Assembly (NCBI GenBank): GCA_001914955.1
Contig: MNDM01000003.1
Span: forward strand, 5,653-61,456
Source of the DNA: Nitrospirae bacterium 13_2_20CM_2_62_8
Lineage (GTDB): Bacteria; Nitrospirota; Nitrospiria; Nitrospirales; Nitrospiraceae
DNA: 55,804 bases
Direction: 5' to 3'
The position numbers and the translations under genes are program-made. This document shows positions 539 through 15,891 of this stretch, in pieces (the stretch's first letter is position 1; each line of letters opens with the position of its first letter). The notes under the pieces are model-generated. The model saw only the letters and a list, made by a program, of their open reading frames with translations. It was not told the DNA's origin and made no database searches.

Positions 539-2062
539 TCATTTGACCCGGGCAAGCGGAAGGGTCCGAACCTGGGCGTTCGCATCGAGCGGAGGGACGC
601 TCATCGGCTCTTGTTCATGCCCGTATTCCGCCCTGGCGGCTTTGGGTACCTGCGTCCGCACGTAGTCGAACAGCTCTCCCAACGATACCAGCCCGTCACC
701 ATCCGCCTCAGCTTCGCCGCCGAGCCCCTTGAGGAGATGGAAGGTGAACAGGCCATGCCGGCCCCGCTCATACTGATGGGCATTCTGGGCCTCGCTGATT
801 CCGAGTATCTGCACGAGCTTGGCGGTTCCCATCGTGGGCACCGCAGCGTCCCAGACCGGACTCTGCCCCTTCTGGCGGATCGAGTCGTGCTGTACCGTCA
901 TCGTCACATCGAGCAGCAGCACCGCGTGCTGAAGCGGCAACCGCGTCAGGGCTGCCTGGAGCCGACGCAAGGACAACAACCGAACGTGGGAGGTGGGAGT
1001 CCCCTCATAGGGAAACAGCGAGACGGCACCGGTCACGGGATCCACCATCGCCCGACCGGAGAAGAAGACCAGCACATCTCCTCCCGACTCGACATGCTGC
1101 GGCAACCAGTTCTCGAGCACGTCAACAAGGTCGTCCTTCAGGGCGTGGTCGTCCGTCACCAGCTTGACCTGCCAGGCCGGAATTCCTCCTACCGCCCGGA
1201 GATACCTCGCCATGACTTCGGCATCGTGGGAGGCAAATTTGACGACCGGCACCTCGGGATCGCGGAAGGCACCGATCCCGATCGCGATTCCGACAGAGTT
1301 CCGCCGCTCGTACCCACGGACCCGCTCCGGAACCTGATCGACGTCGATGCTGCGCGCCTGCGAGGCTTCCGCTTGGGCGGGACGAGAGGCGGCGCTCCCC
1401 CCTCTCCCCGCCCCCGTCTGCAACCCCGATACGAGCGGCTTCCCCTCACGCTGCTTCGCCTCCGCGGCCTGCAGGATCTTGATCGAGGTGCCCAGGTGTT
1501 GGTTGAGCCCTTGCGCTAAACGCGTGATCGCGTCGTTTGCCAATTCGGCGAGGCCACGCACCTCGCAGCTTTGACCCTCCGTGTCTATGTTGCCGCGAGC
1601 TTCCGTACGCAGGTTCCGGGTCGAGAGCAGGGTGCCACCGGCGTCGAAATAGGAAACAGTGGCGCCGAGCGTGACGGTGGCGGGATAGCTCCTGGTCGAC
1701 TGGCGATGGATGAAGAGCTCGACCTCCTTCAACCCCAGAACGACCTCCACGACACCATCGGACGCCGCCGCCACGCGGCTTCCCAACGGTTGTGCGTCGG
1801 CGAGCACATGCTCGAACACCATACCAATGTCGCGCTTCAAGGCCTCTGTGAGACGATCGCCGAACGGAAGTGTCCGGGGTTGACGGCAGGAGTCCGTGTA
1901 GGCAAGCGCGGCTTCCGTCACGCTTGGGTCTAGCCGAAGACCGACCGTCAACGGAAGCCAGTAGCCCTGCGAGGCACCTGCCCCGGTAAACCACCTGGAC
2001 GATATCTCATTGCAGCCCGGGAATATGACCAGCAGGACCAGTGCCACGGTCAGCCCGGTCAT
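539..2062 (-). CDS. Caspase-like (C14 fold) lipoprotein with degenerate active site
   Basis: 507 residues from the ATG at 2062, chosen because it opens directly into a hydrophobic signal ending in a lipobox-like FPGC; the open frame continues upstream but would overlap the divergent prenyltransferase gene. The N-terminal half (about residues 20-220) is a periplasmic domain of unknown type. The C-terminal half (about 250-500) has the layout of caspase-like peptidases: GIAIGIGAF start, segment FFSG at about 335, LLLD strand at about 385 and an EF-hand-like DGDGLVSLGEL near 460 that is usual in these proteins. The catalytic His (normally SGHG) is replaced by SGRA and the catalytic Cys (normally DACxSG) by DVTMT, so it is probably not a peptidase. 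Role unknown; perhaps a scaffold or ligand-binding protein at the outer membrane. Confidence 0.7.
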   Translation of the reverse strand: MTGLTVALVLLVIFPGCNEISSRWFTGAGASQGYWLPLTVGLRLDPSVTEAALAYTDSCRQPRTLPFGDRLTEALKRDIGMVFEHVLADAQPLGSRVAAASDGVVEVVLGLKEVELFIHRQSTRSYPATVTLGATVSYFDAGGTLLSTRNLRTEARGNIDTEGQSCEVRGLAELANDAITRLAQGLNQHLGTSIKILQAAEAKQREGKPLVSGLQTGAGRGGSAASRPAQAEASQARSIDVDQVPERVRGYERRNSVGIAIGIGAFRDPEVPVVKFASHDAEVMARYLRAVGGIPAWQVKLVTDDHALKDDLVDVLENWLPQHVESGGDVLVFFSGRAMVDPVTGAVSLFPYEGTPTSHVRLLSLRRLQAALTRLPLQHAVLLLDVTMTVQHDSIRQKGQSPVWDAAVPTMGTAKLVQILGISEAQNAHQYERGRHGLFTFHLLKGLGGEAEADGDGLVSLGELFDYVRTQVPKAARAEYGHEQEPMSVPPLDANAQVRTLPLARVK

Positions 2063-2225
2063 CCGGCTGAGAAGGAAGGGTGGAGGCGCAGCGTGGGGAG
2101 GTCTCGCCAACACGGCCAACCCTATATACCGAAAATGACGAGAGAAGGCAACTACGAGGACAAGGTTCCTTGCGATCCGAAGCCCGGATTGACACGGTTT
2201 TCCCCAGTGCGCTAAGGTCCCAACC

Positions 2226-3131
2226 ATGCCGGATTCGGCTGCAGGGGCAGGGCTCTCGCGTGCCAGCACTCCTCACGGGAGCCTGCATTGGTCGACGCTG
2301 GCTCGCCTCATTCGGCTCTCAAACCAGTCCGGCACCCTCCTGCTGATGCTGCCCACGCTGTGGGCGCTGCTGCTCGCCTCGCGAGGCACGCCGGACTGGA
2401 GCTTACTGGCCGTCTTCGCGGCCGGCTCGTTCCTCATGCGGAGCGCGGGCGTGGTTCTGAACGATCTCGCGGATCGGTCCTTCGACCGTCTCGTGGAGCG
2501 CACGCGCACACGCCCCCTGGCCAGTGGTGTCCTGGGAGTCCCCGCAGCGCTGGGCACTGCGACCGTGCTGATGGTGGCCGCAGCAGGCTTATTGAGCTTC
2601 ACCAATGAGCTGACGATCCTGCTCAGCCCCGTGGCGCTCCTCCTGGCCACCATCTATCCGTTTTCGAAACGGTTCGTGCATCTCCCCCAGGCCGTGCTCG
2701 GCTTCGCATTCGGCTGGGGGGTCGTCATGGCGTGGGCGGCAGCTCGGAACAGGCTGGAGATCCCCGTCTGGTTGCTCTATGCGGGCTCGATCTTCTGGGC
2801 CGTCGCTTACGACACCATCTATGCGCTGCAGGATCGCGAGGACGATGCACGAATTGGAGTCAAGTCCTCGGCGCTGCTGTTCGGCGCTCGGACCTGGATC
2901 GCGGTGGGCGTTTCGATGGGCGGAATGCTGATCATGCTTGGCCTCACCGGATGGATCGTAAGCCTCGGACCCGGGTTCTATGCCATGTTGGCCGTCGTCG
3001 GCGGGTTTTTTACCAGACAGGTCTGGACGCTGCGGGGCTCGGTCTCCCCCGCACGGGCCTTCAGCATGTTCAGACAACATGTCTGGGTTGGATGGGCGAT
3101 CTTAGCCGGGATCTGGGTGGGATTCTTGTGA
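2226..3131 (+). CDS. UbiA-family polyprenyltransferase
   Basis: 301 residues, polytopic membrane protein. Both Asp-rich motifs of the family are present: NDLADRSFDRLVE (NDxxDxxxD) near residue 80 and DTIYALQDREDD near residue 195, which bind Mg-prenyl diphosphate. Several hydrophobic helices fill the rest. The family attaches a polyprenyl chain to an aromatic ring; the closest roles are 4-hydroxybenzoate prenyltransferase (ubiquinone) or the MqnP-type enzyme of the futalosine menaquinone route. A Nitrospirota host would favour menaquinone, but the sequence alone does not decide. The gene stands alone, divergent from the caspase-like lipoprotein and convergent with the cytochrome cluster, sharing a hairpin terminator-like repeat at its stop codon. 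Confidence 0.85.
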   Translation: MPDSAAGAGLSRASTPHGSLHWSTLARLIRLSNQSGTLLLMLPTLWALLLASRGTPDWSLLAVFAAGSFLMRSAGVVLNDLADRSFDRLVERTRTRPLASGVLGVPAALGTATVLMVAAAGLLSFTNELTILLSPVALLLATIYPFSKRFVHLPQAVLGFAFGWGVVMAWAAARNRLEIPVWLLYAGSIFWAVAYDTIYALQDREDDARIGVKSSALLFGARTWIAVGVSMGGMLIMLGLTGWIVSLGPGFYAMLAVVGGFFTRQVWTLRGSVSPARAFSMFRQHVWVGWAILAGIWVGFL

Positions 3132-3170
3132 AGGTTGAGGCTGAGGCTACTCAACCTTAGCCTGAGCCTT
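3131..3170. repeat. AGGTTG-type inverted-repeat tract (copy a)
   Basis: One arm is built of AAGGTTGAGGCTGAGGCT units, the other of CAACCTTAGCCTGAGCCTT units, so the two arms pair. It starts at the prenyltransferase stop codon (3129-3131), and its C-rich arm encodes the last residues (AKAQAKVE) of the convergent cytochrome. Likely bidirectional terminator or mRNA 3'-end hairpin. Same family at 6708, 43769, 45616 and 55114. Confidence 0.75.
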
Positions 3171-4169
3171 GGCTTCGGATTTGTCTGGCCCCGGCGCCCG
3201 CAGCGTCCCGACATACATGACGATCGCTTTGGCGTCCGAATCAGTGAGGCCGAGATTCGGCATGCGCGTGTCCGGCTTCATGCTTTGGGGGTACTTGATC
3301 CAGCGATAGACCCATGTGGAATTGAGCCGGAAGCCCGCACGATCCAGCGCCGGACCCACCACCCCCCCTGTTTCTCCGACCCGGTGACAGGCATGGCAGC
3401 CGTACTTATTCATGTACAGGCGCCTTCCATCGTCGGACAGCTTCACGGCCTGCCCAGGCTTCATCGTCAGATCCGGTCTAGCCACGGCCGCGAACTTCGG
3501 CCGGGCGGAAAAGTTCGCCTCCGCCGCTTTGGCCTTCTCCAATTCCTTTGCTGCGACGGCCAGGGCTTCCTGCTCCTTGCTGGTGGCAGAGTCATCAACT
3601 TCAGCTCGCTTCTTCTTGGCTTCCTCCTCAGCCTTCTTCTCGGCCGTTTCCAGGACCTGCTTGGCCCGATCGTATTGCTGCTGAGCAGCCTGAAGCTGGT
3701 CCTGCAACCCTTTCTTCCGCCCGTCCACGTCGTACTGCAACTTCGTTCCGTGCAGAGTCCTGACGTAGGCGACGATCGCCCAGAGCTCCTCCTCGGACAG
3801 CGTGTACTTGAAGGTCGGCATGGTCGGCACGGCAAACTCATCGTCGCCGATCTTGTCGCCCACCTCGGGGGTGGTATCTTTCATCTCGCGCGAGACAGTC
3901 GCAAAGAGCTCCTCGTCCTTGAACGTGGACATCTCCTCCTTGGCCGAGAGATCCTTCGGACGGGGATCCGGCATCGAGCTCCAGTTATAGCCCTCGTTTT
4001 GGCGGCCGTGCTCACCGTGACAGTGCATACAATAATGGGCGTACAGTTTCTGGCCCTTGGAGACCCGCTCACTTTGAAACAGTGCGCAGCCAGCCCCGAC
4101 GACGAGCGCCGAGAGGCCGACGAGCGCGCCGGCCAGCCAGACCCTTCGAACATCTCCTGTCGTCCTCAT
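3147..4169 (-). CDS. Di-heme cytochrome c lipoprotein with coiled-coil linker
   Basis: 340 residues from the ATG at 4169, which overlaps the upstream gene's stop as ATGA. The N-terminus is a signal peptide with lipobox VGAGC, so the protein should be anchored to a membrane on the periplasmic side. Two heme c sites: CMHCH near residue 46 and CHACH near residue 280. They are separated by a roughly 70-residue Lys/Glu/Ala-rich segment (DQLQAAQQQYDRAKQ...) predicted to form a long helix or coiled coil. It is the last gene of the eleven-gene respiratory cluster and would pass electrons between the membrane complex and soluble carriers. Its C-terminal tail is encoded within an intergenic repeat arm. 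Confidence 0.88.
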   Translation of the reverse strand: MRTTGDVRRVWLAGALVGLSALVVGAGCALFQSERVSKGQKLYAHYCMHCHGEHGRQNEGYNWSSMPDPRPKDLSAKEEMSTFKDEELFATVSREMKDTTPEVGDKIGDDEFAVPTMPTFKYTLSEEELWAIVAYVRTLHGTKLQYDVDGRKKGLQDQLQAAQQQYDRAKQVLETAEKKAEEEAKKKRAEVDDSATSKEQEALAVAAKELEKAKAAEANFSARPKFAAVARPDLTMKPGQAVKLSDDGRRLYMNKYGCHACHRVGETGGVVGPALDRAGFRLNSTWVYRWIKYPQSMKPDTRMPNLGLTDSDAKAIVMYVGTLRAPGPDKSEAKAQAKVE

Positions 4170-4996
4170 GCAGACCGCCCTTTCTTCAGCTTCCGGACGA
4201 CCACGAACTGAAAGCCCACCGCAAGGCCGATGGCCAGCGCGGCATAGAGATACCCCGAATAGTCCGGCGGCGGCTCGGCGCGGAAATACCACCACGAGGA
4301 CACCGCCTTTTCCGATCCCTTCTCCTTCAGATCGCCGCTGTCCAGCTTCTTTCCATCCCAGATCGCAAACGCGACGTTGATGAACTCGCCGGGTTTGATC
4401 TGGACGTCATGCTCCACATCGCCGGTCGAGAGGGCGCGAGCGAACACGACCTTCCACGTGCCGTCCTGATAGACGCCTTTGCCTTTGACATCCTGCTGGG
4501 CCTGGACTTTCAGGGTGCCGAACCCCTGGGCATTCATGTCCAGAACCTTGGCGCTCACGTTCTTCCAATACCAGATATTGACGGGGCCGCCCTCCACCTG
4601 GGCCATGGGCTGGCCATGCGCGAAATGCGCTTTCTTGTCCCCGACCATGAACTCCAGCGCCGCCGCATCATGGGGATCTTTGCTGGGATCCGCGTACTCA
4701 AGGAGAATGGCCAGGTGCCGGCCGTCATGCAGGGCGCGCACGGTGACCGACTTCACGGTGACTTCCCCAATCCGCGTCGGCCAGTGCACTTGAGGGGATA
4801 ACGGGAACTCCGAGCGGGGCGCGGTGTTCCACGCGGCGGCGGTCGGATCCTCCGCCGGCAGGGCTCCCTTCACGAGATCGGCTCGGACTGCAACGCTTTC
4901 CTGTGCCAAGCCAACTTCGGCCTCCAGGAGGCCCGCAGCCAGAACGACTCCTGCCAGCAATGCCAGGTACCGGATGTGCCTTCGATTACTCATCAT
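4166..4996 (-). CDS. Ethylbenzene-dehydrogenase/NxrC-type heme-binding subunit, membrane anchored
   Basis: 276 residues. The ATG at 4996 is chosen because GGAG lies 8 bases upstream; a GTG at 5002 is too close to it. A signal peptide (hydrophobic to about residue 30) is followed by a domain resembling the cytochrome-c-552/DMSO-reductase-like heme-binding fold (gamma subunits of ethylbenzene dehydrogenase, selenate reductase and the candidate NxrC), recognised from segments such as LAILLEYADPSKD, GPVNIWYWK and YQDGTWKVVFAR. A single C-terminal transmembrane helix follows (about residues 245-265). No molybdopterin catalytic subunit is in the window, so here it probably serves as a heme b electron carrier inside the cluster. 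Family assignment is moderately sure; the b-heme is inferred from the family. Confidence 0.75.
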   Translation of the reverse strand: MMSNRRHIRYLALLAGVVLAAGLLEAEVGLAQESVAVRADLVKGALPAEDPTAAAWNTAPRSEFPLSPQVHWPTRIGEVTVKSVTVRALHDGRHLAILLEYADPSKDPHDAAALEFMVGDKKAHFAHGQPMAQVEGGPVNIWYWKNVSAKVLDMNAQGFGTLKVQAQQDVKGKGVYQDGTWKVVFARALSTGDVEHDVQIKPGEFINVAFAIWDGKKLDSGDLKEKGSEKAVSSWWYFRAEPPPDYSGYLYAALAIGLAVGFQFVVVRKLKKGRSA

Positions 4997-5022
4997 GCTC
5001 ACTACTCCAAGAGAGGTCAGGC

Positions 5023-5281
5023 GGCCTGGCTCCTACTGCGCGCGTCATCACTAGTTGCATTGACAGAGCAATGGGCACCACGGCACCGCGTGGTCTTTCC
5101 GCTGTGCCTCGGGCTGGTGGCCTGGCAGCCTCAGACTGCGCGCGTCCGGCGAGCACTCCATCCACCTGTGCCCGGAACCAATGAATCTTGAGTGCGCGAC
5201 GCGCGAGCACGTGAGGCTGCCTGGCCAACATGCCTGCTCTTCAGTGCGCGATGCGCGAGCGCAGGAGTCAGGCTGCCTGGC
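5023..5281. repeat. Nested palindromic repeat element (copy 1)
   Basis: Fills the 295-base gap between two cytochrome-cluster genes. The inner element, about 5119-5226, has near-perfect terminal inverted repeats (GGCCTGGCAGCCTCA ... TGAGGCTGCCTGGCC) and GCGCGCG/GAGCAC subterminal motifs. An outer pair of related arms starts at 5023 (GGCCTGGCTCCT) and ends at about 5281. A related single element is at 41065-41173. No ORF of its own; looks like a MITE or REP/BIME-type element. Confidence 0.7.
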
Positions 5282-5291
5282 TTCTCGCCCC

Positions 5292-6071
5292 CTACTCCCA
5301 GGTCCTGGGCTTCTGATGGGCCCCGTCGTATTCGCCCATGATGATTTTCCAGACCCACTCATCCGGAAGCTCCAGCTCCCAGCGTGGCATCGCCGATTTC
5401 CAGGGCATGCCCTCGACCGGCAGCCCCACCCCACCCTTCTTGATCCGCCAGTACAGGTAGGACTCCTGGAGCTGGGCGATCGTCCCCGGATCCACGAAAT
5501 TCGCCGGTGGCGGATCGAAGCCACGAGCGGCCGGTCCCTTGCCGTCGAAATTCGCGCCGTGGCAGGGGGAGCAGAAGGCGGCGAAGAGCCCCTTGCCCAT
5601 CATCACGTTCTCCGGGGTGTTCGGGATCGGGTTCGAGAGTCCGACAAACTCGCCGGGGGGAGCCGGATGGATGGTCCGGCTCTCAGCCGGCGGCATGTCG
5701 CTGGGAACCGCGCTGGCGTAAGTCTGCCAGCCAACCAGGAGAGGAAAGAGCACCAGCACCAGCAGGCGGGTGATTTTCATGGGCCCGGTCTGTCCTTCTC
5801 CGCTCAAGAAGCGGACGATGGGGCCAAAGAACTCCTCGGTCGACTCACCGCTGATGGTGGCGAAGATGACGATACCGGCGACGGCCAAGGTCAGGTACAG
5901 GAAGATGAGGTTGGCCGGCAGCGGAGCCGTGAACAGCGGCAGGATGAATTTCAAGAACAGATACAGACCGACGACGAGGACGACTCCTTTGGCCAGCACC
6001 CCGCCTTTATCGAGGAGGACCCCGACTTTTTTCAGGAGCACCTCGCCTTTGAGCAATAGGCCGCCTTTCAT
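5292..6071 (-). CDS. Membrane-anchored mono-heme cytochrome c
   Basis: About 259 residues from the ATG at 6071 (a GTG at 6080 is also possible). The N-terminal part has hydrophobic helices at about residues 30-50, 55-75 and 100-120; the C-terminal part is a periplasmic cytochrome c domain with one CSPCH site at about 165 and a distal Met candidate in the GMPWKSAMPRW segment. It lies between two other cytochrome genes of the cluster, 18 bases or more apart, same strand. Likely an electron-transfer subunit attached to the Rieske/cytochrome b core, comparable in role to cytochrome c1 but of unrelated topology. Exact partner unknown. Confidence 0.85.
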   Translation of the reverse strand: MKGGLLLKGEVLLKKVGVLLDKGGVLAKGVVLVVGLYLFLKFILPLFTAPLPANLIFLYLTLAVAGIVIFATISGESTEEFFGPIVRFLSGEGQTGPMKITRLLVLVLFPLLVGWQTYASAVPSDMPPAESRTIHPAPPGEFVGLSNPIPNTPENVMMGKGLFAAFCSPCHGANFDGKGPAARGFDPPPANFVDPGTIAQLQESYLYWRIKKGGVGLPVEGMPWKSAMPRWELELPDEWVWKIIMGEYDGAHQKPRTWE

Positions 6072-6098
6072 GTCCTCCACCCTTCCTTCAGCGGAACG

Positions 6099-6689
6099 TT
6101 ATCGTGCCTGGGCCAGCGCCACCGCGGCGGCCGTCGGCTGCAGGATCTCGGACGGACTCACCGTGATCGGCTCTCCGCTCATCTGCTGCAGAAACGCGAT
6201 CACAGAGAGAATTTCGTTGTTGGACAGTCCGATCGGATTCTTGTTGATGTGCGGCATCCTGGCCGGGTATTGCTTCGGCGGCCCCTCATGCCGGTAGTCC
6301 AAGTAGATGTACGCCTGGGGCTGGGTCAGGCTCTCGTAGATGAACTCGCGGGTGAGCTTGGCGCCGATGCCTTTCAAGTCCGGACAGCGCGCCGACTCGC
6401 TGGGACCGATCGAGTGGCACAGCGCGCACTGGCCCTTGCTGAAGAAAATCTTCTGCCCGATGGCCGCCATGTCGGCCGAAGTCTTAATCGTGGCCACGTC
6501 GAATTTCTCCTCCGCCGGCGGCAGCGACGCCATCTGGGGGATACTCAGCGCAATCAAGGCGAACGTCCCGAGCACGATCATCACAAACCCCACAACCCGG
6601 AGAAAGCGGGCCTGGATAAATAGCAGGATCGCCACACCGAGGGCCACCACGAGGAGCCCGATCAACTGGAGCAATGCAACTTCGCTCAT
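6099..6689 (-). CDS. Membrane-anchored mono-heme cytochrome c
   Basis: 196 residues; start supported by GTGAGGAA directly upstream of the ATG at 6689. Two N-terminal transmembrane helices (about 5-25 and 30-52) precede a periplasmic cytochrome c domain with heme site CALCH near residue 90 and a Met-containing segment ARMPHINKNPIG as possible sixth ligand. Same strand and order as the other cluster genes, so it probably belongs to the same transcript, although an AGGTTG-type hairpin tract separates it from the bd-like gene upstream. Confidence 0.87.
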   Translation of the reverse strand: MSEVALLQLIGLLVVALGVAILLFIQARFLRVVGFVMIVLGTFALIALSIPQMASLPPAEEKFDVATIKTSADMAAIGQKIFFSKGQCALCHSIGPSESARCPDLKGIGAKLTREFIYESLTQPQAYIYLDYRHEGPPKQYPARMPHINKNPIGLSNNEILSVIAFLQQMSGEPITVSPSEILQPTAAAVALAQAR

Positions 6690-6707
6690 TTCCTCACCGA
6701 TGCCGAT

Positions 6708-6798
6708 GAAGGCTTAGGTTAAGGTCGAGGTTGAGGTTGAGGAAAGGCTTGGTCCTTGTTCTTGTTTCGCCTCGACCTCAGCCTCAACATTAGCCTTC
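6708..6798. repeat. AGGTTG-type inverted-repeat tract (copy b)
   Basis: G-rich arm with repeated AGGTTAAGGTCGAGGTTGAGG units near 6712-6742, C-rich arm CCTCGACCTCAGCCTCAAC near 6770-6788, loop about 30 bases. It lies at the stop codon of the minus-strand bd-like gene (6790) inside the operon, where it may act as an attenuator or mRNA processing/stability hairpin. Confidence 0.7.
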
Positions 6799-8652
6799 CC
6801 GTTGATCCAGTGTCGGCGATCCGCCGGCCATCGCCGGATACGCGCCTGCCGGGAGCTTTTTCTTGGTTCCCGGCTCCCCTGCCTTGGCCTTATCCCCCAT
6901 GGTGGCCACCCAGAAAATGAAGGCCACCAGCAGACAGAACACGAACGTGTTCAATGACATGAATGCCGCCGCGTAACCCAGGGCCGGCGAGTAAGCGTAC
7001 TGGGAGGAGTCGCGCATCACGCCGTAAATGTGCCAGTGTACCCGCGACGAAGACCGCGCGTAGCCCATCAAGGTCATGAGCAGGATCACCATGACCGCAT
7101 TCAACACGAGGGCGTATCCGGCCCGCGGTGGCATGCGGCCCCAGATCATTTCGGTGGTAGTGCGCGCGCTCTTCATGAGGAGACCGGTCAGCGGCGTGAT
7201 CGTGACCAAGACGAACAGGACAATCAGGACCTGGGCCACCGAGAAATAGTTAATGCGGACGATGGCCGGCACGAAATACCCCCAGACACCGAGCACGATG
7301 ACCACGATCGCGGCGAGGCCCAGCACGCCGCCCATCACTTTTTGGGCCACCTTGGCCCAGGTGGCGGTCACTTGCTTGCCCGCGCGCCAATAGATGATAA
7401 AGCTCATGAACGTCACCAGGATCATGATATTGACGACGGTCATCTTGGCCGACATCACGCCGAACACGCCCAACAGCGGATGGTGCGTGCCGCCCATCTT
7501 CCTCGCCTCTTCCAGGCTGGCGACGAGCGAGTGCGGCGTCATCCAGACGCCGAGGCAGAGCAGCAGGATCACCAGCATCGCCATGATCGGCCGGCGGTAC
7601 TTGACCTCGGATCCCTCGATGCGGTGCGTAATCCCCAGCCAGAAATAATAGTTCGCTCCCAGGAACAGCACACCGATCAGGAACGCCTGCAAGATGAACA
7701 GCCACGAGAGGAAGCCACCCATCAGGGTAATGCCCATCTGCTGGTTGTATTGGTACACCTCACGCATGAGCCAGTAGCCGGCAAAGGGTAACGGCAGCAT
7801 GCCGAACACCCCGATGAAGTTCCCCACGTAGCCCATCCAGTCATAGTGCACGCGCTCCTCGTGCGTGTTGGCCGAAAGATACCGCATGCCGGCGTAGGCG
7901 CCGCAGATGAAACCGCCCAGCACCACGTTCGCGATCAGCCGGTGCACATTGACCGGCCACCACGTGGGATTCCAGGTGGCGGCCCAGGCTCGGGCCAGGG
8001 CCGAGCCTTCCGCGACCACCACGGGGCTGGCTTGGAACGTGGCCCAAGAGTTCGGGACGATCATGATGAAGAACGCGAACACGTTCAGCAGGAGCCCCAG
8101 GAACAGGTGAAGTCCCTTCTTGCCACCCCCTTGCATGACGTCCCAGCCATACCAGTACAGATACAGCGTGACGGTCTCCAGCAGGAACAGGGCGCAGTAC
8201 ACGACGAAGGACGGGAAAAAGATATCCGTCAGATACGCCATCAGCTTGGGGTAAAAGCCCAACAGCATGAACAGCAGAATGCCCCCGAACAGGGCGGTCG
8301 TGGCATAGGCGGAGGTGAGGAGCTTCGTGAACTCCTTGGCCAGCTTGTCGTAGCGCTTATCGCCGGTCCGGACCCCGACAATTTCACAGACCCAGGCAAA
8401 GATCGGGACGCCCAGCACAAACCCTGCCAACAATAAATGTTGCTGCGCGATGACCCAGATAATGTTCCGGCTCCCTCCCAATTGAGGGATATCCCGATAG
8501 GCGACCGTGGCTGCCGTACCGGCGGCATCCTGCGCGAGCCCCAACAGGGGGATTCCCAACAGGCCTGTGAGGAAGATCAACGCGGCAACCGACCACGCTC
8601 GGCGGCGCCACAAACCGGCGCGTCGCTCTCGATGTTTACCATGGTACGTCAT
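6790..8652 (-). CDS. Cytochrome bd oxidase-like subunit I (CydA-like), paralogue 1
   Basis: 620 residues, about 14 transmembrane helices; start supported by AGGAG 6 bases upstream of the ATG at 8652. Similarity to CydA is clearest in three places: AQQHLLLAGF near residue 70 (position of the N-terminal heme-ligand His), FLLETVTLYLYWYGWD near 155 (the conserved Glu of helix III), and VNVHRLIANVVLGGF near 235 (second heme-ligand His). The quinol-binding Q-loop motif GRQPW is absent and no CydB is encoded nearby, so a classical quinol oxidase is unlikely. Nitrospira is known to carry such bd-like proteins, whose reaction is not settled. A hydrophobic signal-anchor precedes the domain. Probably a heme-bearing redox or proton-pumping subunit of the cluster's complex. 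Confidence 0.82.
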   Translation of the reverse strand: MTYHGKHRERRAGLWRRRAWSVAALIFLTGLLGIPLLGLAQDAAGTAATVAYRDIPQLGGSRNIIWVIAQQHLLLAGFVLGVPIFAWVCEIVGVRTGDKRYDKLAKEFTKLLTSAYATTALFGGILLFMLLGFYPKLMAYLTDIFFPSFVVYCALFLLETVTLYLYWYGWDVMQGGGKKGLHLFLGLLLNVFAFFIMIVPNSWATFQASPVVVAEGSALARAWAATWNPTWWPVNVHRLIANVVLGGFICGAYAGMRYLSANTHEERVHYDWMGYVGNFIGVFGMLPLPFAGYWLMREVYQYNQQMGITLMGGFLSWLFILQAFLIGVLFLGANYYFWLGITHRIEGSEVKYRRPIMAMLVILLLCLGVWMTPHSLVASLEEARKMGGTHHPLLGVFGVMSAKMTVVNIMILVTFMSFIIYWRAGKQVTATWAKVAQKVMGGVLGLAAIVVIVLGVWGYFVPAIVRINYFSVAQVLIVLFVLVTITPLTGLLMKSARTTTEMIWGRMPPRAGYALVLNAVMVILLMTLMGYARSSSRVHWHIYGVMRDSSQYAYSPALGYAAAFMSLNTFVFCLLVAFIFWVATMGDKAKAGEPGTKKKLPAGAYPAMAGGSPTLDQREG

Positions 8653-8679
8653 GGAGATCTCCTGGCCCTCACGCAGCGG

Positions 8680-9573
8680 CTAGCGTGTGCGCCCACCGCC
8701 CTCCTGCGCGCCGACTTTCGCAGAGGGCTGCTTGGCACCCTTGGCTTGTGGGGCCTTCCCCTTGGCTCCCTGTTTCGCTTTTGCCTCGAGCGCCTTGACG
8801 GCGGATTCCGCTTGGGCAATCAATTTCTCCGTCCTCTGCAAGGCCTCAGCCGGCTTGAAGAATTCAATCTTGGGCGGCTCCTTCTGATACAGTTCGTGGG
8901 GATGGGGTGTTGTGACCGGCATGACGGCCCAGAACAGGAACACGAGCACCACGCCGGTCGCCGTGAACGCCGTCAGAAGCAGCGGCTGATCTGCTGGGAC
9001 TCTCAAGAGATCCCACCGGCGGACCAACGCCTCGTACGGCTCCGCCGTCGGACGAGCGGCTGCCACCTGCTTCCGCACAATCTGCCCGAAAAGAAACAAC
9101 CATCCGAGCGCCAGCCCCAGCAAGACCACGGTGGCCACACTGCCCCACAGGACCAACTCGATACTGATTCGTTCCGGCACGGGGACGTTCTTCAGCACTT
9201 CGATCTCAAACATGCGCCCCACGACCGCCTTCGCGACCCCGACCACCCCGCTTTCGATGCCGTAGGCGATCGGCAGGTAGACGGCGCTCAACAACGCCGC
9301 TTGCCACCACAAGGTGACCCCGGCGGATTCGGGCGGCTCCAGATGCAACCGGTCGAGGAAGACGGTGCGCGCACTGAGGCCCAGAGCCCAGATGTCGACA
9401 GGAATCGACAACAGCAGGAGGAGGGCGAGGCCGGGCATCTCCCAGGGATGGACACCCATGGCGAGCAGCAGCAAGATCAGGACGATCTTGATCGGGACGC
9501 CGGTCCAAAAGGCGGGCCACGCGACCGCGAGGCCCAACTTCACCGACGACATGGAAGAGGCGTGAGCAGACAT
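8680..9573 (-). CDS. Polytopic membrane protein with charged C-terminal tail (unknown)
   Basis: 297 residues. Five or so hydrophobic segments (about 12-32, 35-60, 85-110, 140-165, 200-222) are followed by a tail rich in Lys, Ala, Glu and Gln (residues 230-297) that should form a helix and then a flexible Lys-rich end. No heme motif, no known domain recognised. It is tightly packed between the cytochrome b gene (19-base gap) and the CydA-like gene (27-base gap), so it is probably a structural subunit of the same complex. No Shine-Dalgarno is visible before the ATG at 9573; translation may be coupled. Confidence 0.7.
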   Translation of the reverse strand: MSAHASSMSSVKLGLAVAWPAFWTGVPIKIVLILLLLAMGVHPWEMPGLALLLLLSIPVDIWALGLSARTVFLDRLHLEPPESAGVTLWWQAALLSAVYLPIAYGIESGVVGVAKAVVGRMFEIEVLKNVPVPERISIELVLWGSVATVVLLGLALGWLFLFGQIVRKQVAAARPTAEPYEALVRRWDLLRVPADQPLLLTAFTATGVVLVFLFWAVMPVTTPHPHELYQKEPPKIEFFKPAEALQRTEKLIAQAESAVKALEAKAKQGAKGKAPQAKGAKQPSAKVGAQEGGGRTR

Positions 9574-9592
9574 GGATCAAAACGACAAATGG

Positions 9593-10687
9593 CTAGTCCA
9601 GAAATTCGCGATTGATGATCGCCGAAACGGTAAACACGAGAATGCCGGTCATCACCAGCAGCCAGCCGATGAGCGCGATCGGCCGCTTGAAAATATTACG
9701 CTCCGGGCTGCGGTCGATAAATGGCAAAGCGGCCAACAGCAACAGGAATGCATTCGGAATGGCGACCCCCGCCACGAACTGTCCGAGCTCTCCGGAAAAT
9801 ATCTTCAGCCGCAGCATCTGAAACAAAAACAGGAAGTACCATTCCGGCTCAGGATGATAGTCCCCCGGGTCCGGGGTCGCCTCCTCCAACAACACCACCG
9901 GCTCGATGAACGCCAGGCTACAGATTGTCACGAACACCGCTCCCATCGCCACGACGTCTTTCCAGACTTGCCGGGGGAAGAAGTAATCGGTCCTGGCTCT
10001 CAGTTCGTCCGCGCTTCCCCGGAACGGCCCGGCCGGGCCGGCTTTCCGGAACAGGAACAGGTGCAGCCCCGCCAGCCCCATCAGCGCGGCCGGGAGGATC
10101 ATGACATGAATGACGAAAAACCGGCTCAGCGTCATCTGACCGGGCGTGGGCCCACCCTTGAGAAACCTGGCGATGAAGTCGCCGACAACAGGAGTCTTGT
10201 CCATGATCTCCACGCCGACGGTGGTCGCCCAATAGGCGCGCTGATCCCATGGCAACAAGTATCCGGTGAAGCCGAACGCCATCACCAGGCCAAAGAGCGC
10301 AAGCCCGATCAGCCAGACCAGCTCCCGTGGCTTCTTGTAGGCGCCCCACAGAAAGACCTGCGACATGTGGGCGAACACCATCACCACCATCGCCGAAGAC
10401 CCCCAGAAGTGGTAACTCAAGATGAACCATCCATAATCCACTTCGTGCAGAATGTACTGGGTGCTCGCATAGGCGTGATCGGCACTGGGGACGTAATAGA
10501 ACATGAGCAAAATGCCGGTCACCGCCTGCATGATGAAAATGAACAGCAGGCAGGAGCCGAACACATAGGCCCAGCGCGACCCGCCAGGTACGGGTTCGTT
10601 GAGCATCTTGGCCTGCAGGGTCTTCAGGCCGATCCGCTCGTCCACGAACGCGAACACTTTTTCCAGCACTGACGGTTGGCCGCTCAT
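9593..10687 (-). CDS. Cytochrome b (fused b6/subunit IV type)
   Basis: 364 residues. The ATG at 10687 shares a base with the Rieske stop codon (TGATG), indicating translational coupling. The heme-ligand His pairs are visible: SYH-13 residues-AH in the helix near residue 85-100, and IH-14 residues-LH near 185-200; the 13/14 spacing is that of cytochrome b6 rather than mitochondrial-type cytochrome b. The quinol-oxidation-site motif PEWY (PEPEWYFLFLFQML) lies near residue 275, followed by the subunit IV-like helices. Together with the Rieske protein it forms the quinol:cytochrome c core; the c-type cytochromes in the cluster replace cytochrome c1/f. With bd-like subunits it may work in either forward or reverse (quinone-reducing) direction. 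Confidence 0.93.
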   Translation of the reverse strand: MSGQPSVLEKVFAFVDERIGLKTLQAKMLNEPVPGGSRWAYVFGSCLLFIFIMQAVTGILLMFYYVPSADHAYASTQYILHEVDYGWFILSYHFWGSSAMVVMVFAHMSQVFLWGAYKKPRELVWLIGLALFGLVMAFGFTGYLLPWDQRAYWATTVGVEIMDKTPVVGDFIARFLKGGPTPGQMTLSRFFVIHVMILPAALMGLAGLHLFLFRKAGPAGPFRGSADELRARTDYFFPRQVWKDVVAMGAVFVTICSLAFIEPVVLLEEATPDPGDYHPEPEWYFLFLFQMLRLKIFSGELGQFVAGVAIPNAFLLLLAALPFIDRSPERNIFKRPIALIGWLLVMTGILVFTVSAIINREFLD

Positions 10688-11625
10688 CAGACGATCCGAA
10701 CCTGGGCTCTCGTGCCGGCCTTGAATTCCACGTCGATAATCTCGATATCGCCGTTGGCGGCGACCCGGATCGGGACCGGGTCCAGGGGTCGGGGAGCCGG
10801 CCCGTCCAGCACCTTCCCGCTGGGATCGTAAATGCTGAGGTGGCAGGGACACAGGAAGATCTGCCGGCCGAGTTTCGGGACGTTCCGCCACTTGTACCCG
10901 CAGCCGAGGTGCGGGCATTTGCCCGAATAGGCCACATAGGGCACATCGCGCTTGTTTGTCCAGATCACCTGACCGGAGTGGTCCTTGAACTCCAAATCTT
11001 TCCCCTTGTAGACGCCCTCGAGGACCGCCGGTGAGGCCTTCAGGACCCAGACGTTCTTGTCAACCTCGGCCTCCGGCATGAACGCTTCCTTGACACTCTT
11101 CTTGAACTTGAACTGCACCCCGACATCCTCCGTCTTGACCTTGCCCGCATTGCCGATCTTGATCCAGCGGTTGTCGAAGGGCGCATACATCGGCTTCATC
11201 ACGTACTTGAGGACGGGAAACGCCAACGGGAGGGCCAGCAAGAAGCCGATCGCGTGCGTGAAGTTCGTGAAGAAGGTCCGGCGCTTGACGTTGCGCTCCA
11301 ACTCGGGCACCGGCACCAACACTTCGCCCGGCTCCACGTGCAGGTGATCCTCGAGGTGCGCGATCTCGACCTCCCGGATGGTCACATACCCCTCGCGCTG
11401 AAAAGCCGGGAACTGCGCCATCTCGCTCGAGGTGCCGCGCAACTGGACGGCGTCCTCCGTCACCGTCTCGACCTGGGCCGCCGGGATCTGGCGCTCCAAC
11501 GCGCCGGCTCCGTCGCCCACGACGATGTGGCTGACCTCCCGTGACAAGGGGTCGACGATGATCCGGGTCACCTCGCCGACTGCCCGGTCGGCGCACCGCA
11601 CTTTCGATTTGAGCTTCGGTTGCAC
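10687..11625 (-). CDS. Rieske iron-sulfur protein with N-terminal PRC-barrel-like domain
   Basis: 312 residues from a GTG at 11625. Residues 1-65 (KVRCADRAVGEVTRIIVDP..., SHIVVGDG) have the pattern of a PRC-barrel, an unusual addition for a Rieske protein. A hydrophobic anchor follows RRTFF at about 116-143. The Rieske domain carries both cluster-binding boxes: CPHLGC (Cys237, His239, Cys242) and CPCH (Cys259, Cys261, His262). Both Cys residues that form the disulfide in high-potential Rieske proteins (242 and 261) are present. It accepts electrons from quinol at the cytochrome b site and hands them to a c-type cytochrome. The gene is 1 base after the upstream cytochrome gene and overlaps cytochrome b. 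Confidence 0.92.
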   Translation of the reverse strand: MQPKLKSKVRCADRAVGEVTRIIVDPLSREVSHIVVGDGAGALERQIPAAQVETVTEDAVQLRGTSSEMAQFPAFQREGYVTIREVEIAHLEDHLHVEPGEVLVPVPELERNVKRRTFFTNFTHAIGFLLALPLAFPVLKYVMKPMYAPFDNRWIKIGNAGKVKTEDVGVQFKFKKSVKEAFMPEAEVDKNVWVLKASPAVLEGVYKGKDLEFKDHSGQVIWTNKRDVPYVAYSGKCPHLGCGYKWRNVPKLGRQIFLCPCHLSIYDPSGKVLDGPAPRPLDPVPIRVAANGDIEIIDVEFKAGTRAQVRIV

Positions 11626-11626
11626 G

Positions 11627-12454
11627 TTACTTCTTCTTGATCGGCTTCGGCGTATTCACCGAGGGGTTCTTGAGCGTGGACAGATAGGCCACCAGCGCGT
11701 CGATATCTTTGTCCTCCATCAGCTCCTTATACTTGTCGGGCATCTTCTTCTTGTCGTATTCCTTCTCGAATCCTTCCGCCATCCAGCTCCGCGGGTCCAG
11801 GATCTTTTGTCGGAGCTCCTCCGGCTGCATCAAACTGCCGATGTTGTCCATCTCGGGGCCACGTTTCTTGCCACCCTGCCCGGAGAGTTTATGGCAGTTG
11901 TAGCATTCCTGAAGCTCCCACTGCTCCTTCCCCAGAGCAACCAGGTCACCAGTCGCTGCCGGCAGTGTGCCCGACGGCCTTTTGCTGTCGGCTCCGACCG
12001 GAACGCTCGCCATGGCAACGCCTCCGACCGACTGCAGCCGCTGCATGATCGCGTCGGCCTTCTCGGCCAACGCTTTCGTGCGGGTGAGCAACTCCTCCGC
12101 CTTTCCCTGTTCGGTGGCGGCGCGCTTGGCCTTCAGCAACTTTTCGATCTTGCCCTTTTCGTCCTCGGGATCGTACTGAGGCCAGAACGACGCTCCACCG
12201 ATGTACACACCCGACAGCACGACGTAGAACGCCAGGAGCGCCACCAGCGCCTTCATCCCACCCATGGGCTGGAGCGAGGGAGCGTCCAAGAGAATGAAGA
12301 CCGCGGTCCCCAGCATCGCGTAGGTGAAGAACATCACTTGAAAGACCGGCGGAAAGTCCAGCGCTCTGGCCAGGCCGACGAGGAAGATCCCGACGACGAT
12401 CCCGATGATCCCCTTCTTGATCACGTGCTTCACGAAACTTCGCTCGTCACCCAT
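11627..12454 (-). CDS. Membrane-anchored mono-heme cytochrome c with helical linker
   Basis: 275 residues. Three N-terminal hydrophobic helices (about 12-30, 38-57, 66-88) precede a charged helical stretch (residues 98-145, KIEKLLKAKRAATEQGKAEELL region) and then a cytochrome c domain with heme site CYNCH at about 185 and Met-containing MPDKYKEL near 240. The general plan (helices, coiled linker, one heme) echoes the other cluster cytochromes, suggesting linkers that span a large periplasmic complex. It sits directly before the Rieske gene and is probably its electron acceptor, functionally like cytochrome c1; this last point is inference. Confidence 0.86.
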   Translation of the reverse strand: MGDERSFVKHVIKKGIIGIVVGIFLVGLARALDFPPVFQVMFFTYAMLGTAVFILLDAPSLQPMGGMKALVALLAFYVVLSGVYIGGASFWPQYDPEDEKGKIEKLLKAKRAATEQGKAEELLTRTKALAEKADAIMQRLQSVGGVAMASVPVGADSKRPSGTLPAATGDLVALGKEQWELQECYNCHKLSGQGGKKRGPEMDNIGSLMQPEELRQKILDPRSWMAEGFEKEYDKKKMPDKYKELMEDKDIDALVAYLSTLKNPSVNTPKPIKKK

Positions 12455-12494
12455 GCTGCTACCCTGTCTTGACGGCGAGGAAGGCCCGTCGCGC

Positions 12495-14213
12495 TTATTT
12501 GGCTCCGGCCGGAACCGGGTCGCCCGCCCGCTCAGGCGCCTTGGCTTCAGACGCCCGTAGGGTTACCACGATCGCAAAACTCACCACCATATAGAAGATC
12601 AGCGTGATGCCGGTGATCCACCATCCGGCATAGGAGAGCGTGGGGGTGAACGACTCGGCGGTGAAATCGGGCATCAGGTTATACGTGTGGAAATACTTGC
12701 GAACGAGCGACCGGACCGCGCCCATGAGGCCCATCGTCCAGATCGCGCTGAAAGCCAGAAAGATCAGCACGAACTGGGCGGCGAAGTCGATCTTTCCCCA
12801 CACGATCGTCCCCTGGCGGATCGCGCGGTTATAGAGGATATAGTTCACGACTGTGACGAAGATCAGGGTAAAGGCCGCCGAGTTTTTGGCCGGCATCAAC
12901 GCGAGGAAGCTCCAGTCCGAGGGCAACTCCAGATGCTCCGTCGCCAACGCCTGGGTAGCGACAAACCCGTGTGGGGTCATCCAGATCGCATTGCCAACCA
13001 CCACCATGAGGAACCCCACCTTGATCACGGTTCGCGAAGACACGGTGATTCGACCAATCGGCGGCATTCCTTGGCCGATAATCCACGGAGCCAGCGTCAG
13101 CGGCACCAAGACGGCCAGAGACCTGGGATCGGGGACAGGGAAGATCGTCCAGACGTACGTCATGATGAACGGCAACGCGACCATCACCACGAGGGTCACG
13201 GCCGTCATCCGGACTCGCTCGACCCCCTCGATCCGTTTCATGCTGAGCCAGATGTAATAATTGCTGGCCAGGAAGATCAGCCCGACCATGGCGCCTTGCA
13301 TCTCGAAAAACATCGAGAGCTGATCGGCCATCATGTACGGGCAGATCGAGGCATCGTAATCGCACAGCTCGAACGACAGCAAGTACCCCATGAAGGGCAG
13401 GAAGAGGAGCGCCCCCACCCCGATCAGGTTTCCGACGAACCCCATCCAGTCATAATAGGCACGCTCCTCCTCGTTCTTGGCGCCCATGTACATGTAGGCG
13501 GCGATCAAGCCGGCGATGAACCCGCCGAAGGTCACGTTCCCCACCAGTCGGTGGAGGTTCAACGGCATCCAGCTATAGTTGTAGACCTTGTCCCAGAGGG
13601 ACGCGGTTTGGATGTATTCGACCAGGGACAGGCCTTCCGCAGCCTTCGCCGGCGTATTCATGAACGAGGTGGGACCGTCGATCACGAAGAGCGTGACCGT
13701 CCCGATGATGTTGAGCAGCACGCCGAGGGCGATATGCCGACCCTTCATCTCGCCCTTCCACGCATCCCAGGTGTAGAAGTACAGGTACAGCACGATGGTC
13801 TCGGCGATGAACAGGAGCGGATAGATCACCGCAAAGATCAGGAAGAAGTGGTTGATCAACCAGGTGGTGAACTGGGGATAGGTGGCCAGCAGGACGAAGA
13901 TGAACAATCCGCCGGTGAGCGCGGTCATGCTGTAGAGGATCACCGTGACCTTGGTGACTTCCTTGGCCAGCCGGTCGTAACGCGGGTCCTGCTTTCGATA
14001 CCCCAGCCATTCCGAAATGACCACGAAGATCGGAGCGCCCAGGATGAAGGCGGCAAAGAGGATGTGGAGCTGGGCGACGATCCAGACGGCCGTGCGGTTC
14101 CCGGTGTAGGGAAACTCCGCGGCCGGCGGACTGGGAACTTGAGCATAGGCCGCGGTGGCGACCGTTGCCAGGAGGACGAACGTGAGCAGCAGACTGCGTC
14201 GCGTGGCCGTCAT
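12495..14213 (-). CDS. Cytochrome bd oxidase-like subunit I (CydA-like), paralogue 2
   Basis: 572 residues with a cleavable-looking signal (ends AYAQ near 25) and about 14 transmembrane helices. It is clearly homologous to the other bd-like gene of the cluster: VWIVAQLHILFAAFILGAP near 45 (His ligand), LFIAETIVLYLYFYTWD near 135, LNLHRLVGNVTFGGF near 220, and YYDWMGFVGNLIGV near 255. GRQPW is absent. The paralogues differ in length and in their middle loops, so they are probably not interchangeable; the complex could contain both. One base separates it from the cytochrome gene upstream. Confidence 0.83.
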   Translation of the reverse strand: MTATRRSLLLTFVLLATVATAAYAQVPSPPAAEFPYTGNRTAVWIVAQLHILFAAFILGAPIFVVISEWLGYRKQDPRYDRLAKEVTKVTVILYSMTALTGGLFIFVLLATYPQFTTWLINHFFLIFAVIYPLLFIAETIVLYLYFYTWDAWKGEMKGRHIALGVLLNIIGTVTLFVIDGPTSFMNTPAKAAEGLSLVEYIQTASLWDKVYNYSWMPLNLHRLVGNVTFGGFIAGLIAAYMYMGAKNEEERAYYDWMGFVGNLIGVGALLFLPFMGYLLSFELCDYDASICPYMMADQLSMFFEMQGAMVGLIFLASNYYIWLSMKRIEGVERVRMTAVTLVVMVALPFIMTYVWTIFPVPDPRSLAVLVPLTLAPWIIGQGMPPIGRITVSSRTVIKVGFLMVVVGNAIWMTPHGFVATQALATEHLELPSDWSFLALMPAKNSAAFTLIFVTVVNYILYNRAIRQGTIVWGKIDFAAQFVLIFLAFSAIWTMGLMGAVRSLVRKYFHTYNLMPDFTAESFTPTLSYAGWWITGITLIFYMVVSFAIVVTLRASEAKAPERAGDPVPAGAK

Positions 14214-14214
14214 C

Positions 14215-14787
14215 TTAGGTCTTCCCCGCCGCAGCCTTCTTGGGTTTGGGAGGCGCGGAGGCCGGGGCCTTGCCCGCCGGCGCGGCAGCAGGCGGCTTGG
14301 CCGAGCCGACCGGCACCCATTCCTTCTTCACCACATCAAATTCCAGGCCCTTCAGTCCGAACGTGCGCTCGTAGGCCATGACCTTCCATCGGTCCTCCTC
14401 GGGAAGCTTGCTCTTCCAGGCCTTCATCTTGGTGTCCTTGACCCCCTCGGAGATGCGCCAGAACCAGACCGCGTCCGAGTAGAGCTTCATCCGTTCGGTA
14501 TTCCGGAAGTCCCGCGCCCCGGCTTTCACGGGCTTTCCGTCTTTCCCGTGGCAGCTCGCGCAATTCACATCAATATTCGTGGCGCCGATGAAGATCTGGC
14601 GCCCTTCCTCGATGATCTTCTCATCCGCCCACCAGCCTGCCGGCATGTGTTTGTCCGCGTATTCAGCCGGAGGGTCCGGCGGTGCCACGATCGGCCCCTC
14701 GCCCGCCTCGCACCCTGCGACCGTCACACTCGCTCCCGCCAGACCTATGAGGAGCATCATCGTCCCCCACGCCGTGCGCTTCATCAT
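14215..14787 (-). CDS. Mono-heme cytochrome c lipoprotein
   Basis: 190 residues; first gene of the cluster. Signal peptide with lipobox VAGC (Cys near residue 26), one heme site CASCH near residue 80, and a Pro/Ala/Lys-rich C-terminal tail (about 160-190) likely to be disordered. The start follows GGGTGAGATC. The region upstream contains an intrinsic terminator for the preceding gene, so the cluster promoter should lie between about 14788 and 14885, but no convincing -10/-35 pair is visible there. Confidence 0.87.
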   Translation of the reverse strand: MMKRTAWGTMMLLIGLAGASVTVAGCEAGEGPIVAPPDPPAEYADKHMPAGWWADEKIIEEGRQIFIGATNIDVNCASCHGKDGKPVKAGARDFRNTERMKLYSDAVWFWRISEGVKDTKMKAWKSKLPEEDRWKVMAYERTFGLKGLEFDVVKKEWVPVGSAKPPAAAPAGKAPASAPPKPKKAAAGKT

Positions 14788-15044: not shown

Positions 15045-15584
15045 CTATTTGCGCCGTTCCTTGCCTCTCTTTTGAGACCGATGCCGGTTCCGGATCAATC
15101 TCACGCCTGCCAGCGCAGCCACCGCCGCAAGACCGATCCCCGCACCATAGTAGATCCAGTCGGCTCCTTCGGCGGCTGATTCGCAGCCTGAGCCAAAATT
15201 GACCGTGATGTGGCGCTCCGTGCGAGCATCCTTGGAATCGAACTGAGCGGTCACCCGCTTTTCTTGATCGAGGGCGATCACCAGGATCGGGTCGCCTCCA
15301 TTCTCGTTGTGCAGATGGAGGGTGGCCTTGTAGTAGCCGCGGTTGTCCGTGTACCCGATCGCATGGACGGATACCCGCACATCCTTTGCGATGACCTTGA
15401 TGTCAGGAACCGGCTGGCCATCTGGCCCGCAGACATGCCCCGCGACGGTGAACCGGTGGTCCACCTCATGCATGGCTACCGCGGTGGGGGGAGAGGAGGC
15501 ACCTAAGACGAGCCACGTAACAACGAGGCTCAATAACGCCACAAAATAAATCGCCCTCGTTCCGCCCCCCGGTCCCTGCCGCAT
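15045..15584 (-). CDS. Exported protein with carboxypeptidase-regulatory-like domain and C-terminal anchor
   Basis: 179 residues from the ATG at 15584 (upstream codons in frame give an unlikely Cys/Arg-rich extension). Signal peptide to about residue 37, then an Ig-like beta-sandwich of the CarboxypepD_reg type (FTVAGHVCGPDGQPVPDIKV ... TDNRGYYKATLHL) at about 45-130, then a transmembrane helix (about 147-167) and a very basic cytoplasmic tail (RNRHRSQKRGKERRK). Such domains bind proteins or carbohydrates in the periplasm. Position just upstream of the cytochrome cluster suggests, but does not show, a link to it; a terminator separates the two. Confidence 0.72.
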   Translation of the reverse strand: MRQGPGGGTRAIYFVALLSLVVTWLVLGASSPPTAVAMHEVDHRFTVAGHVCGPDGQPVPDIKVIAKDVRVSVHAIGYTDNRGYYKATLHLHNENGGDPILVIALDQEKRVTAQFDSKDARTERHITVNFGSGCESAAEGADWIYYGAGIGLAAVAALAGVRLIRNRHRSQKRGKERRK

Positions 15585-15891
15585 AGGCCTCGTCGTGCCG
15601 GTTGCCGCGGCTGGGTTCCGCACTGCTGAGCGGCGGCTCAACTCCTCGAAACACTCACAAAAACACGGCACGCCAGGCCTTGGGCGCGACCGTTCTAGCA
15701 TAGGTGATGGCCTTTGTCAATAATGCCCGTGGCCGCGTTTGACGGTGAAATGTCCCGCTATTCAGAGGGGTTTCGGCGGCCTGGCAGGCCCTCTCTCGAG
15801 AGGGCTCCGGGCGGGACGCCGGGCAGGATCAGTGAGCCAGGAGAGCGAATCAAAAGGAATCTGAGGGAGCGGAGGAGATGAGCAGACAGCC
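15585..15891. other. Non-coding gap with one hairpin
   Basis: No supported gene. A small perfect hairpin, GCCCTCT/AGAGGGC (15788-15794 with 15799-15805), lies about 90 bases after the stop of the downstream-reading gene at 15892 and could stop its transcript, though it has no T-tract. Confidence 0.4.

Follow-up and report, generated by a model that had tools for sequence, protein, structure and literature searches.

Nitrospira are major nitrite oxidisers whose terminal oxidase and reverse electron route have been in question since 2010, and the locus described here raises both issues together: which of its proteins would handle quinone, and which would reduce O2? The stretch of DNA analysed (the window, 55,804 nucleotides) belongs to contig C65 of a 2.0-Mb MAG that is 73% complete, bears NxrA and has Nitrospirales relatives, N. 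moscoviensis and N. defluvii being among the named relatives matched. Eleven co-directional genes occupy its minus strand from 14787 to 3147:

14215..14787, minus strand: c1, lipoprotein-type monoheme cytochrome c (CASCH)
12495..14213, minus strand: A1 (bd-like_1), CydA-like membrane protein without the quinol loop (PF01654, 2.7e-21)
11627..12454, minus strand: c2, membrane-anchored monoheme cytochrome c (CYNCH) with three predicted TM helices
10687..11625, minus strand: Rieske iron-sulfur protein with ligand motifs CPHLGC and CPCH (Pfam Rieske)
9593..10687, minus strand: cytochrome b, b6-type fused to a subunit IV-like part (Cytochrome_B N and C parts)
8680..9573, minus strand: M, membrane protein with no Pfam or NCBIfam match
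6790..8652, minus strand: A2 (bd-like_2), CydA-like protein, probable cytochrome c-fed O2 reductase (Cyt_bd_oxida_I, 5.6e-20)
6099..6689, minus strand: c3, membrane-anchored monoheme cytochrome c
5292..6071, minus strand: c4, cytochrome c with four predicted N-terminal TM helices
4166..4996, minus strand: NxrC-like protein (alt_NxrC_1), heme-b protein with a C-terminal TM anchor (PF09459, EB_dh)
3147..4169, minus strand: c5, diheme cytochrome c with a signal or anchor

The coordinates, families and motifs agree with the original prediction of eleven genes on one strand that encode a b6-type cytochrome b with PEWY, a Rieske protein, an NxrC-like heme b subunit, a membrane protein of no known family (M) and five c-type cytochromes with six hemes, the CxxCH count being six over the five proteins. 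The Rieske/cytochrome b ligands are intact, with PEWY at 281 of cytochrome b, four heme-b histidines in b6-type spacing (93/107, 194/209) and both Rieske motifs. No named cytochrome c1/f match was obtained among the locus proteins with family profiles, and c1 or c2 may take its place as third subunit. The prediction that quinol chemistry is joined here to c-type cytochromes is right as well. The tight packing predicted for the genes is real in part: single-base gaps separate c1 from A1 and c2 from the Rieske gene, and overlaps join the Rieske and cytochrome b genes (TGATG) and the NxrC-like and c5 genes (ATGA), but a gap of ~295 bp (4997-5291) between c4 and the NxrC-like gene breaks it. The starts of cytochrome b (10687), the NxrC-like protein (4996) and c5 (4169) were set by overlap and spacing, and a consensus promoter scan found no sites. 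Inside the cluster there is, as predicted, neither CydB nor a heme-copper oxidase (HCO) gene, yet canonical cydAB is encoded elsewhere in the genome, on contig C72.

The locus is the standard Nitrospira-type respiratory cluster, ordinary for Nitrospirales and already published. At the N. moscoviensis locus, Mundinger et al. 2019 (PMC6606698) described CIII_1, bd-like_1, bd-like_2, alt_nxrC_1 and cytochromes c, proposed a III/IV supercomplex possibly contacting NXR, and reported uniformly high transcription during nitrite oxidation. That locus (L067) has all eleven orthologues in the same order, including two cytochromes c between bd-like_2 and alt_nxrC_1, with identities of 66% (c1), 81% (A1), 62% (c2), 70% (Rieske), 86% (cytochrome b), 45% (M), 85% (A2), 77% (c3), 74% (c4), 72% (NxrC-like) and 66% (c5); apart from diverged sequences, the window operon is set off from it only by a REP-like insertion that separates c4 from the NxrC-like gene. 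The complete order is found in 16 of the 17 loci of families f1 and f3, L030 being a variant, and in 77 of 80 named loci no gene is missing for which the contig has room. The three exceptions are L040 (family f4), L069, where the NxrC-like gene was not found, and L063, whose split operon reflects a scaffold gap of 100 N within the Rieske gene and no rearrangement. Gene order is conserved across the order Nitrospirales far beyond chance. An orthologue of c1 is present in nearly every Nitrospirales locus read and adjoins A1 outside the order too.

Both bd-like proteins depart from canonical CydA. The Cyt_bd_oxida_I match covers only the first ~240 residues of A1 and A2, and in a tree the 67 bd-like rows stand apart from five canonical CydA sequences with a support of 100, which places both proteins outside the canonical clade. 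A1 forms one clade (support 96) and bd-like_4 another (99); A2-type and bd-like_3 proteins lie near each other, the deep joins being long-branched and unsure. Residue roles below follow the ligands of E. coli bd-I. Counterparts of His19 and His186 are invariant in the alignment of A1, A2, bd-like_3 and bd-like_4, and together with Glu107 they are kept by all bd-like groups of the order, which have all lost Glu99, Lys252, Glu257 and Glu445. Of the predicted absence of GRQPW from the two paralogues, the loss of the loop stands, with Met/Ile replacing Lys252 and Glu257 of the Q loop, but the Arg of GRQPW is kept. Glu445, which we take to be the heme b595 ligand, is replaced by Leu, and Met393 has no conserved counterpart in this alignment, whose C-terminal half is less certain than its N-terminal half. 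A1 and A2 share His19/His186 with canonical CydAB and differ from it in GRQPW, the Q loop, Glu445, Met393 and the lack of a CydB partner. A2 alone has additional invariant or nearly invariant histidines, His390 and His539, beside His391 and His541, and A1 is without His390, His391 and His539. The loss of Glu445 and Glu99 implies that classical bd chemistry is not simply to be assumed for A2. AlphaFold2 models, built from 18 sequences for A2 (mean pLDDT 49) and 17 for A1 (mean pLDDT 57), were too poor for heme placement; a PDB sequence search with A1 and A2 profiles found two canonical bd subunits, matched over the N-terminal part only, and no recognisable quinone site was seen in the sequence of either protein.

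The bd-like_2 type has been named OR-N2 and is expected to pair with OR-N1 as CydAA' (PMC12342949, PMC10839748), the OR-N family of the cytochrome bd superfamily and CydAA' being attributed in these two papers to Murali et al. 2021. A1 and A2 likewise fall outside canonical CydA and are without quinol loop and CydB; A2 is a Nide0901-like protein by position and is taken as OR-N2 from its place as bd-like_2. The bd-like_3/alt_NxrC_2 cluster of Nitrospira, Nitrospina and anammox bacteria has a like order (bd-like, c3-like, c4-like, NxrC-like), and its bd-like_3 is 44-46% identical to A2, but alt_NxrC_2 is longer with two CxxCH motifs and the cluster is without Rieske/b. Within the same phylum, the TO complexes of Ca. 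Manganitrophaceae bring bd-like proteins together with parts of a complex III-like or periplasmic cytochrome b kind (PMC9040806), a likeness in the kinds of parts combined. With Murali et al. 2021 outside the comparison, the present analysis adds to these descriptions the A2-c3 and c2-c1 fusions, the Mo-enzyme partners and the operon without NXR.

The operon is built from two separable modules. In family f4 (NP85, UBA2166 and UWMA-0026), the locus runs from c1-A1-c2-Rieske-b and a short M on to genes resembling c3 and c5; A2, c4 and the NxrC-like gene are missing from it, and no NxrA was found in this family. A2 occurs without A1 in three genomes (G262, G289 and G291), and is fused to c3 in the first two (L154/L155). 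The arrangement bd-like-c3-c4-NxrC without Rieske/b is seen at four loci (L150, L153, L156 and L158), and the genome of the window itself holds a separate copy of it on contig C26 (L120), a bd-like_3/bd-like_4 cluster. M is short in f4 (172 aa) and in G272 (91 aa), where its C-terminal helix region alone is conserved.

Both bd-like types also have neighbours of another kind in Nitrospirota outside the class. A1 with c1/c2 adjoins genes for a PhsA/DmsA-type Mo subunit and FeS proteins in three genomes (L146:4020-11407, L147:323-7118 and L148:1-5737, where the contig ends within A1 and c2 is out of view), the bd-like protein standing where a quinone-binding anchor would be expected. L146 also has a TorD-like gene; L147 (genome G166) has a tetraheme protein like cytochrome c554 and a c2 fused to a c1-like domain, adjoining A1. 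Two further genomes have an A2-like gene and c3/c4 beside genes for Nxr-like A, B and C subunits (L151:1018-10123 and L152:880-10288). The A subunit is 41-43% identical to Nitrospira NxrA and possibly belongs to another type II Mo enzyme that has a bd-like partner to itself.

The distribution of recognised oxidases bears on which protein reduces O2. A strong match to COX1 (HCO subunit I) is present in ~16 of 147 Nitrospirales genomes and canonical CydA in roughly half of them, and by our own tally ~40 of 123 high-quality genomes, including the closed G029 and G047, have neither. Those outside family f4 all have A2 (in G031 only a fragment at a contig end), and AOX was absent in all five of the ~40 that were tested. 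An OR-N protein is therefore the sole recognised O2-reductase candidate in such genomes, some of which also lack AOX. The A2-c3 fusion in two genomes, in one of which (G262) no HCO, canonical CydA, AOX or A1 orthologue was found, suggests that A2 is probably fed by cytochrome c; this fusion and the extra His390 and His539 favour A2 over A1. In the genome of the window, ~27% of which is missing, no HCO was found. In family f4, A2, HCO and canonical CydA were not found, and the two genomes tested for AOX gave none either, but A1 and a bd-like_3 are kept; any O2 respiration there must fall to another OR-N protein. The original prediction was right to call the bd-like reaction open, although proposals of the A2 type as complex IV go back to 2010 (PMC6606698, PMC10579370); no biochemistry of any member was found. 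From sequence and distribution, we consider it reasonably likely that A2 is an O2 reductase.

The NxrC-like protein has an EB_dh-type heme-b fold (PF09459, 5.8e-24, above the cut-off; TIGR03477, 110 bits, below the cut-off; PDB 7b04_C, 3.5e-16, and 2ivf_C, 2.9e-15). NXR is present in the genome of the window, its NxrA lying on contig C35 with 81% identity to a closed relative. Two genomes of other families of the same class (G272 and G277, 97-98% complete) carry the operon, with the M gene not recognised in G277, and gave no NxrA match better than 7e-4. The operon thus need not be an NXR-docking device, nor nitrite the sole possible electron source, and a general heme-b relay of electrons in the periplasm is the better reading of the NxrC-like subunit; its docking to NXR in Nitrospirales is possible, yet its mere presence need not mean docking.

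The reading that we favour, with somewhat less assurance than the role of A2, is one of two cooperating modules, the first linking quinone and cytochrome c, the second oxidising cytochrome c and probably reducing O2, the two possibly joined in a supercomplex. Module I (c1-A1-c2-Rieske-b-M) would be a Rieske/cytochrome b-type quinone-cytochrome c oxidoreductase that has A1 as a bd-like membrane subunit and two c-type cytochromes in the place of cytochrome c1 or f. Module II (A2-c3-c4-NxrC-like-c5) would be a cytochrome c-oxidising complex that passes electrons from periplasmic heme b and heme c proteins through c3 to A2 and most likely to O2, as complex IV. Nitrite electrons at ~+430 mV cannot enter the methyl-plastoquinone pool, at ~+57 mV, downhill, and reverse operation of complex III in Nitrospira has already been proposed (PMC12324825). 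Most nitrite electrons would accordingly run through NxrC-like/c5/c4/c3 to A2 and O2, and a minority backwards through Rieske/cytochrome b of module I into the quinone pool at a cost in proton motive force. We infer this assignment of electron flow from gene content and the published potentials; reverse flow through complex III is plausible, and a reversible complex III has about the same moderate likelihood as the two-module reading. The two modules may be associated as a III-IV supercomplex, although a stable one appears somewhat less likely than its absence. The modular comparison narrows the old question to A2 with c3 as cytochrome c oxidase and to A1 on a Rieske/cytochrome b complex.

The original prediction went further, to a single large complex, and the eleven proteins could form one obligate giant assembly, a permanent III-IV supercomplex coupling quinol/quinone to cytochrome c and O2. 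The close spacing and overlaps, the gene order invariant across Nitrospirales and in two genomes of other families of the class, and the strong transcription across the region in N. moscoviensis are what such an assembly would lead one to expect, and the supercomplex idea as such fits Mundinger et al. 2019. An obligate complex is nevertheless unsupported: module I persists without A2, c4 and the NxrC-like protein in f4, the c3-fused A2 without A1 in G262 and G289, and bd-like, c3/c4 and NxrC without Rieske/b at the four loci named above, and A1-c1-c2 stands beside Mo enzymes. We regard this reading as unlikely. Some of the same genomes bear on the idea of a single CydAA'-type oxidase, a heterodimer of A1 and A2 in place of CydA-CydB, beside an independent complex III. 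Their joint presence in nearly all Nitrospirales agrees with it, as does the probable pairing of OR-N2 (NIDE0901-like) with OR-N1 (ISME J 2025, PMC12342949; ISME Commun 2024, PMC10839748). If A1 is OR-N1, however, pairing as an obligate rule is contradicted by A1 without A2 in f4 and the Mo-enzyme operons and by A2 without A1 in G262, G289 and G291, and A1 lacks three of the histidines of A2; such an oxidase seems improbable, slightly more so than the giant complex.

An equally improbable reading makes neither bd-like protein an oxidase; both would be quinone/heme-relay modules, after the manner of alternative complex III, for reverse electron transport from high-potential donors. It draws on the loss of the heme b595 ligand and quinol loop, on A1-c1-c2 beside PhsA/DmsA-type Mo and FeS genes, on A2-like-c3-c4 beside NxrA/NxrB-like genes, and on the ACIII-like role suggested in the Nitrospina genome paper (PMC3578206). 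It would deprive the ~40 genomes that have neither HCO nor canonical CydA, and in some cases no AOX, of any recognised O2 reductase, yet the literature describes Nitrospira as aerobic (PMC12324825), and the lack of a recognisable quinone site in A1 and A2 also speaks against it. Two modules with A2 as the probable oxidase remain the preferred reading. A broader and speculative extension, rather unlikely but less so than these three alternatives, would make the OR-N bd-like proteins exchangeable membrane building blocks for electron transport in Nitrospirota: A1-c1/c2 would couple either to Rieske/cytochrome b or to Mo enzymes of the PhsA/DmsA type, and A2-type proteins, accompanied by c3/c4/NxrC, would serve in O2 reduction or alongside Nxr-like enzymes. 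In that case a novel type of complex III would contain A1 as a subunit that is not an oxidase, and the operon of nitrite oxidisers would be common to lithotrophs without NXR.

No support was found for a hidden gene between c4 and the NxrC-like gene; the gap holds a genome-wide REP-like repeat. The partly palindromic GCTCGCGCRTCGCGCACT occurs there in two copies (window 5186-5260) and has 41 copies in the genome at <=1 mismatch, often paired ~52-56 bp apart; the reversed-pattern control gave 0. Convergent to the operon end, a gene on the plus strand (window 2226-3131) encodes a UbiA-family prenyltransferase, which may be part of the unusual methyl-plastoquinone pathway of Nitrospira. Its place is kept in most Nitrospirales loci extending that far, and it is also on the opposite strand at the N. 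moscoviensis locus. In most loci of family f1 the next gene after the cluster encodes a 576-aa protein with no Pfam match (window 539-2269, minus strand), which is poorly conserved (~35-56% outside the genus). On the other side, the operon is preceded in most families, and also in G272 and G277, by a gene for a small protein, secreted or in the membrane, whose carboxypeptidase-regulatory-like match is weak (window 15045-15701, minus strand); f4 has two copies of it.
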